This document shows, piece by piece, positions 6,231 to 6,683 of a stretch of DNA of 34,329 bases. Position 1 is the stretch's first letter, and each line of letters opens with the position of its first letter. The stretch is taken from NCBI GenBank assembly GCA_017601145.1, contig JAFNIV010000017.1, forward strand, positions 1 to 34,329. The letters are read 5' to 3'. The DNA is from Candidatus Brockarchaeota archaeon (GTDB lineage Archaea; Thermoproteota; EX4484-205; JAAOZO01). The notes below the pieces were generated by a model. That model did not search any database and was not told where the DNA came from. It worked only from the letters and a program-made list of their open reading frames with translations. Both the position numbers and the translations under genes were made by a program.

Positions 6231-6283
6231 TGCAACTTGATAAAGATAAGAAAGGAAATATAAACTTTTTAAGACTCCTTAGA

Positions 6284-6550
6284 GTGACTTCCTCCCCACC
6301 CTTACGGATGGGGCTTCCAAGTTTCGTTCAACCCGTCTCTCACGAGAGCGGTGTTTCATGGAAGCTTGCGAGGTTGCCTCCTTTACTTACTCATGGAGCT
6401 TTCACGGTCACCGACCAACACTCCACGAGCTTACTCCGCATTGAAGCGGAGCGGAGGCTTATGGGCGCAGTCACAGAGTGACTGGTTCACTCCAGTCGCA
6501 CCCCGTCAAGGAGCATATAGCTCCAAGACCTCTCAACGCCGAAGCGTCAA
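6284..6550 (-). ncRNA. Candidate omegaRNA-like structured RNA (TnpB guide scaffold)
   Basis: Minus-strand hairpins: GACGC-UUCG-GCGUU, GGAGC-UAUAU-GCUCC, CAGUCAC-UCU-GUGACUG, CUCCGC-UUCAAU-GCGGAG, CUCUC-GU-GAGAG. The 3' hairpin is fully paired only in minus-strand RNA (U-G). TATA-like box about 25 nt upstream. A guide would extend to lower coordinates (<6284). Confidence 0.6.
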
Positions 6551-6567
6551 AAACACTTAAGCATTAG

Positions 6568-6580
6568 GAGTATTTAAGTT
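6568..6580 (-). promoter_or_regulatory. TATA-like box for the structured RNA
   Basis: Minus strand AAACTTAAATACT about 25 nt upstream of the GACGCTTCGGCGTT hairpin. Confidence 0.4.
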
Positions 6581-6683
6581 TAACGCAATTCATCCCCATG
6601 CGTAAGCGTGGGGTCTTCTTGCGAGGTATGAGATAAAGTCCTTACTTTCTTATCGATTTTAAATCTTGCATATTAAAGTCTAG

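Follow-up and report, generated by a model that had tools for sequence, protein, structure and literature searches.

The guide of TnpB normally comes from the tnpB transcript itself. Stand-alone omegaRNAs of IscB were reportedly described by Altae-Tran in 2021 from Ktedonobacter racemifer; there, as proposed for the locus considered here, an OMEGA guide is encoded away from its nuclease gene, although the RNA family is a different one. Palindrome-associated transposable elements (PATEs) carry IS605-like near-terminal palindromes but neither terminal inverted repeats nor a transposase gene, and are present in multiple copies in Haloquadratum walsbyi (PMC3119063). A Halanaerobium PATE keeps the 3’ end of tnpB and the full right end (PMC7290912). 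In Sulfolobus islandicus, solo-tnpB elements have TTTAT as their adjacent motif and tnpA-tnpB elements have TTTAA (PMC10640517). SMN1, a 320 bp MITE of the same species, is thought to depend on the ISC1733 transposase, with no omegaRNA role described (PMC3718332).

The element described here lies in a 34,329-nt stretch of DNA (the window) from the genome of a hot-spring archaeon, of 1.62 Mb in 55 contigs, the assembly being ~86.5% complete. Like the PATEs of H. walsbyi and Halanaerobium, it has near-terminal palindromes and no transposase gene; unlike them, it has an omegaRNA core recognized by covariation, a left-end TATA box, and an extra RNA domain found across phyla. With solo-tnpB (IS1341-type) elements, such as those of S. 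islandicus and one on contig C5 of the same genome, it has in common the left end, TTTAT, the TATA box, the omegaRNA core and the right-end hairpin, but it has no tnpB, its right boundary is AGTCAC rather than GTTCAC, and its body is ~150 nt longer. SMN1, compared by its description only, is likewise archaeal, similar in size and thought to be mobilized in trans. Transposase-less elements are thus an already known kind; what is new is the covarying omegaRNA, its own predicted promoter, and a possible cross-phylum lineage without tnpB. We consider it likely, from sequence comparisons, that the element is a non-autonomous IS200/IS605-type element (a PATE) carrying a complete TnpB omegaRNA gene.

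A multicopy element without tnpA or tnpB

The source genome contains five full or nearly full copies of the element and at least three partial copies cut by contig ends. The copies are 94–99% identical, each has its own flank, and their alignment ends sharply at window positions 6284 and 6637, TTTAT included. The initial annotation had placed the element at 6284–6630, which is nearly exact; comparison of the copies gives 6284 to 6632 (Table 1). It had further described an ORF-less, GC-rich, foldable island, and this island is real: GC content reaches 0.58 against ~0.34 in the surroundings, the minus strand folds with a z-score of -6.07 (-125 kcal/mol) and the plus strand with one of -5.08, and the sole ORF across the element is a spurious one of 83 aa with a TTG start. 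The end hairpins, the UUCG hairpin and the minus-strand TATA-like box that it listed were all recovered. Near-terminal palindromes are present, terminal inverted repeats are absent, and the length is too small for a transposase, as in PATEs. No tnpB or tnpA gene lies inside the element, which is classed as tnpB-less, and not as a solo-tnpB IS605 element, because no ORF within it encodes tnpB.

Table 1. Features of the element and its flanks in the window
Feature	Position	Strand	Evidence
Non-autonomous IS200/IS605-type element (left end 6632, right end 6284)	6284..6632	-	Identity among the five full genome copies is lost at both ends
TTTAT target / transposon-adjacent motif	6633..6637	-	Adjoins left end; at 6/6 loci with a readable left end
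Left end with near-terminal hairpin (6594-6613)	6580..6632	-	Like the left ends of solo-tnpB elements, both on contig C5 and in other genomes
TATA-box-like CTTAAATA	6571..6578	-	Position behind the left-end hairpin is the same whether or not an element carries tnpB
Predicted omegaRNA scaffold, ~265 nt	6284..6548	-	Fold z -6.07; homology and covariation with TnpB-linked omegaRNAs
5’ UUCG hairpin	6533..6550	-	Fold; TTTGACGCTTCGGCG kept in L046, another genome
Stem 1, UAUAU loop	6505..6529	-	Helix 1 of A1: 90% of cells paired, 3 pairs changed on both sides
Stem 2 (GGGUGC:GCGCCC) with inserted hairpin	6463..6503	-	Helix 2 of A1: 98.1% of cells paired
Pseudoknot 5’ strand, GTGACT	6469..6474	-	Helix 3 of A1: 95.4% of cells paired, 3 pairs changed on both sides
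Pseudoknot 3’ strand, AGTCAC (last six bases of the element)	6284..6289	-	Helix 3 of A1
Extra 3’ domain, GCUUCC-AUGAAACACCG-hairpin-CGGGUUGAACGAAAC-UUGGAAGC	6313..6367	-	Kept in L035/L052, L099, L118 and L240
Right-end hairpin	6294..6313	-	Fold; consensus fold with compensatory pairs
Predicted guide TCTAAGGAGTCTTAAAAAGT, from flanking DNA	6264..6283	-	Adjoins right boundary; differs in all eight copies

TTTAT is constant at the six loci of the source genome whose left end is readable, the right flanks are all different and the copies are many, so that the element appears to belong to a mobile family rather than to be a single domesticated gene. The initial annotation had allowed for domestication. 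The stand-alone nature of the gene is the one feature that speaks for a host-useful guide RNA, which is very unlikely given that a single genome holds eight or more nearly identical copies, among which eight guides differ; the window copy, moreover, sits in an intergenic gap. An empty site was looked for in a sister genome (G001), whose contig begins just beside the insertion site. A 98.6% identical element lies on L135 (a contig with the title ‘Nitrososphaeria archaeon isolate DRTY7.bin_36’), where it has the right flank of one of the copies in the source genome. The element had no match in the plasmid and phage collections.

Some copies vary at the left end. L004 and L005, which are different loci, have a common 21-base deletion in the inner arm of the left-end hairpin, and the left tip of L005 resembles that of the C5 tnpB element. 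Between L002 and the otherwise nearly identical L001 and L003, the loop of the left-end hairpin is inverted, as if it had been flipped in single-strand processing.

The same kind of left end occurs beside solo tnpB genes in other Thermoproteota (L036, L037, L041, L053 and L056). In tnpB-carrying elements the TATA-like box would drive tnpB. In the window element, a minus-strand transcription start is predicted near 6548, at the UUCG hairpin, and L046 keeps the same TTTGACGCTTCGGCG...GAGAGGTCT start. A sigma-70 promoter scan was set aside as not meaningful for an archaeon.

A predicted omegaRNA with a covarying pseudoknot

The predicted RNA has the layout of a TnpB omegaRNA. First, the scaffold shares homology with the tnpB 3’ end and with the right end of TnpB elements; the stem 1 region corresponds, in tnpB-carrying elements, to the region coding for the TnpB C-terminus. 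Second, bases in a scaffold loop can form a pseudoknot with the bases adjoining the guide. Third, the predicted guide reads from 6283 downwards, and all eight copies have a distinct sequence beyond the right boundary.

Covariation was assessed in an alignment of 18 sequences (A1 in Table 1), made up of 14 TnpB-linked omegaRNAs, the window element and three other elements that lack tnpB. The aligned blocks were the stem with a UAYAU-like loop, the second stem, six bases from a loop and the element’s final six bases. Across the two stems and the pseudoknot, 94.8% of cells are standard pairs, and pairing falls to 25–44% when the partners are slid by one to three columns. Shuffles have a covariation score of 0.122 (sd 0.021); the alignment scores 0.342, a value attained in none of 500 shuffles. 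Since kin sequences can exceed shuffles without any structure and the blocks were hand-chosen around conserved landmarks, this is strong but not independent proof of an omegaRNA structure. The pseudoknot, GTGACT:AGTCAC in the window copy, occurs elsewhere as GTGAAC:GTTCAC, TTGACA:TGTCAA and GTGACC:GGTCAC. The covariation places the predicted window RNA among TnpB omegaRNAs, on the minus strand. An earlier covariation run on pattern hits alone yielded too few core matches to judge.

The initial annotation had proposed an IS605-like stand-alone omegaRNA gene, and two minus-strand features, the conserved pseudoknot and a predicted guide located at the right boundary, support that proposal. Its argument for a minus-strand RNA was a pair in an end hairpin that reads U-G on the minus strand and C-A on the plus strand. 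This holds for the hairpin at 6294–6313; the hairpin at the other end shows the reverse, and is flipped in L002. The argument is weak on its own, because the end hairpins contradict each other and the loop has opposite orientations in different copies, and the case for the minus strand therefore now rests on the covariation. A search of Rfam with the window and six loci gave no match at the gathering score, to the model of the IscB omegaRNA (HEARO) or to any other.

An alternative is a plain DNA-level MITE, whose hairpins would serve TnpA on single-stranded DNA with no RNA function. IS605 ends need hairpins for TnpA, and SMN1 offers a precedent for a small archaeal MITE. However, the structure of the window element is mostly internal, and the covarying pseudoknot and stems 1 and 2, which are common to TnpB omegaRNAs, extend beyond the end hairpins. 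A purely DNA-level role is consequently very improbable.

TnpB and TnpA in the source genome

As the initial annotation had suggested, the genome was searched for tnpB, tnpA and elements with similar ends. It contains 27 matches to PF07282 (the TnpB domain) and one Y1 TnpA, and contig C5 (L014) carries a solo tnpB of 347 aa with a left end like that of the window element, TTTATC...CTCGCAAGAAGACCCC-hairpin-GGGGATGAATTGCG...TTTAAAT, a right end that is similar but not identical, and an omegaRNA homologous to the window RNA. The C5 TnpB passes the NCBIfam model guided_TnpB (170.9 bits, cut-off 100). It is without the canonical RuvC-II glutamate, and an alternative glutamate is found six residues before the zinc finger (ISEAYSSTICHIC); this ‘Ealt’ arrangement has been described for some TnpBs and Fanzors (PMC10711439). 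Since it passes the model and has the Ealt glutamate, the C5 TnpB may well be active. It may not be the partner of the window RNA, because its own omegaRNA is much shorter (by ~150 nt) and has another pseudoknot pair, GTGAAC:GTTCAC. Since the assembly is incomplete, a TnpB that fits better may be absent from it. The resident Y1 TnpA has an HUH-like motif, and the left end of its element appears to have TTTAA, not TTTAT, a difference in target motif that counts against this TnpA as the partner.

The tnpB beside the only TnpA (L028/L030, contig C1 of G000, ~8.3–9.9 kb) lacks the zinc finger and RuvC-III region, and a C-terminus shortened in the same way is seen on two further contigs (L023 and L024), which suggests a common, perhaps nuclease-dead, family of shortened TnpBs spreading with TnpA. 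The whole of the solo-TnpB family examined (L083, L088, L202, L203, L204, L209–L214 and L216) has glycine at the position of the canonical RuvC-II glutamate, within the motif I/L/M-G-x-L-x-G-[IV]-R.

Enlarged RNAs without tnpB in other archaea

The match of the left end and omegaRNA core to the resident C5 element would fit a recent local deletion derivative of that element, mobile through its ends only and carrying its omegaRNA as a non-functional remnant. Core deletion is a documented origin of palindrome-associated elements in Haloquadratum (PMC3119063), and a Halanaerobium element of this kind has been described (PMC7290912). Yet the body of the window element is unlike that of C5, the extra domain is common to tnpB-less elements of other archaeal phyla, and the pseudoknot and stem 2 carry compensatory changes that a dead remnant would not keep. 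Such a recent origin is therefore unlikely.

Two further Thermoproteota genomes, an Asgard MAG, Bathyarchaeota and Aenigmatarchaeota contain RNAs related to the enlarged window RNA. G373 (L035 and L052), Bathyarchaeota (L118 and L240) and Aenigmatarchaeota (L099) have the extra domain, CCATGAAACACCG-hairpin-CGGGTTGAACGAAAC, while the stem-2 insert and the general layout recur in the Asgard MAG (Sifarchaeum, L174) and in L046. The window RNA aligns with its enlarged relatives at scores above those of shuffled sequences (z ~9 to 17), and the consensus fold of the enlarged RNAs retains compensatory pairs. In a scan of 401 Thermoproteota genomes, the domain pattern was present only in the source genome and G373, and no match was found among the viral contigs scanned. 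None of the complete enlarged-RNA elements contains tnpB; L118, which is cut by a contig end, was left out of this comparison. A broader count covered 119 right ends of the GGAAGYCCC...GGAGGARGTCAC type. A TnpB motif lay upstream of 32 of them, in most cases within ~230 nt, and was absent from 46 others for which over 1.5 kb of upstream sequence was available; the count is rough because a simple TnpB motif was used.

Four further loci from Hadesarchaea and Methanomethylicota (L068, L074, L127 and L144) form another tnpB-less group. They combine a TATA-like box and a long, structured body with ends resembling those of IS605, and on the left side the resemblance is to tnpA-tnpB elements. They were kept out of the alignment, their cores not being confidently placed, though their layout looks related.

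Because the enlarged RNAs span phyla and the complete examples are without tnpB, they suggest descent from an old lineage lacking TnpB, and not a deletion of recent date. It is a serious, if tentative, possibility that the window element belongs to such an old lineage of tnpB-less mobile guide RNAs, present in several archaeal phyla, marked by the extra RNA domain, and acting in trans as a partner or parasite of TnpBs encoded elsewhere.

Proposed activity and implications

The non-autonomous element with a complete predicted omegaRNA gene retains a left end, TTTAT, a TATA box, an omegaRNA scaffold with its pseudoknot, and a right end. It very probably needs both TnpA and TnpB in trans and makes the omegaRNA from its own promoter. 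In the proposed cycle, the left-end TATA box would start a minus-strand RNA near 6548 that passes through the right end into flanking DNA; because the RNA would read into this flank, the element’s own guide would be reprogrammed at every insertion. A Y1 TnpA acting in trans would move the element as single-stranded DNA. TnpB, also in trans, would bind the RNA and, once the empty site is restored, cut it at TTTAT plus guide (for the window insertion, the empty site is predicted to be AGGACTTTATTCTAAGGAG); repair after the cut would put the element back.

If this is true, a single TnpB could work for many small mobile elements, each programming itself by its insertion site, which would explain the persistence of such short elements. 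Guide and nuclease would then be naturally separated in the manner of CRISPR arrays, and tnpB-independent omegaRNA scaffolds with an enlarged, conserved architecture would become available.
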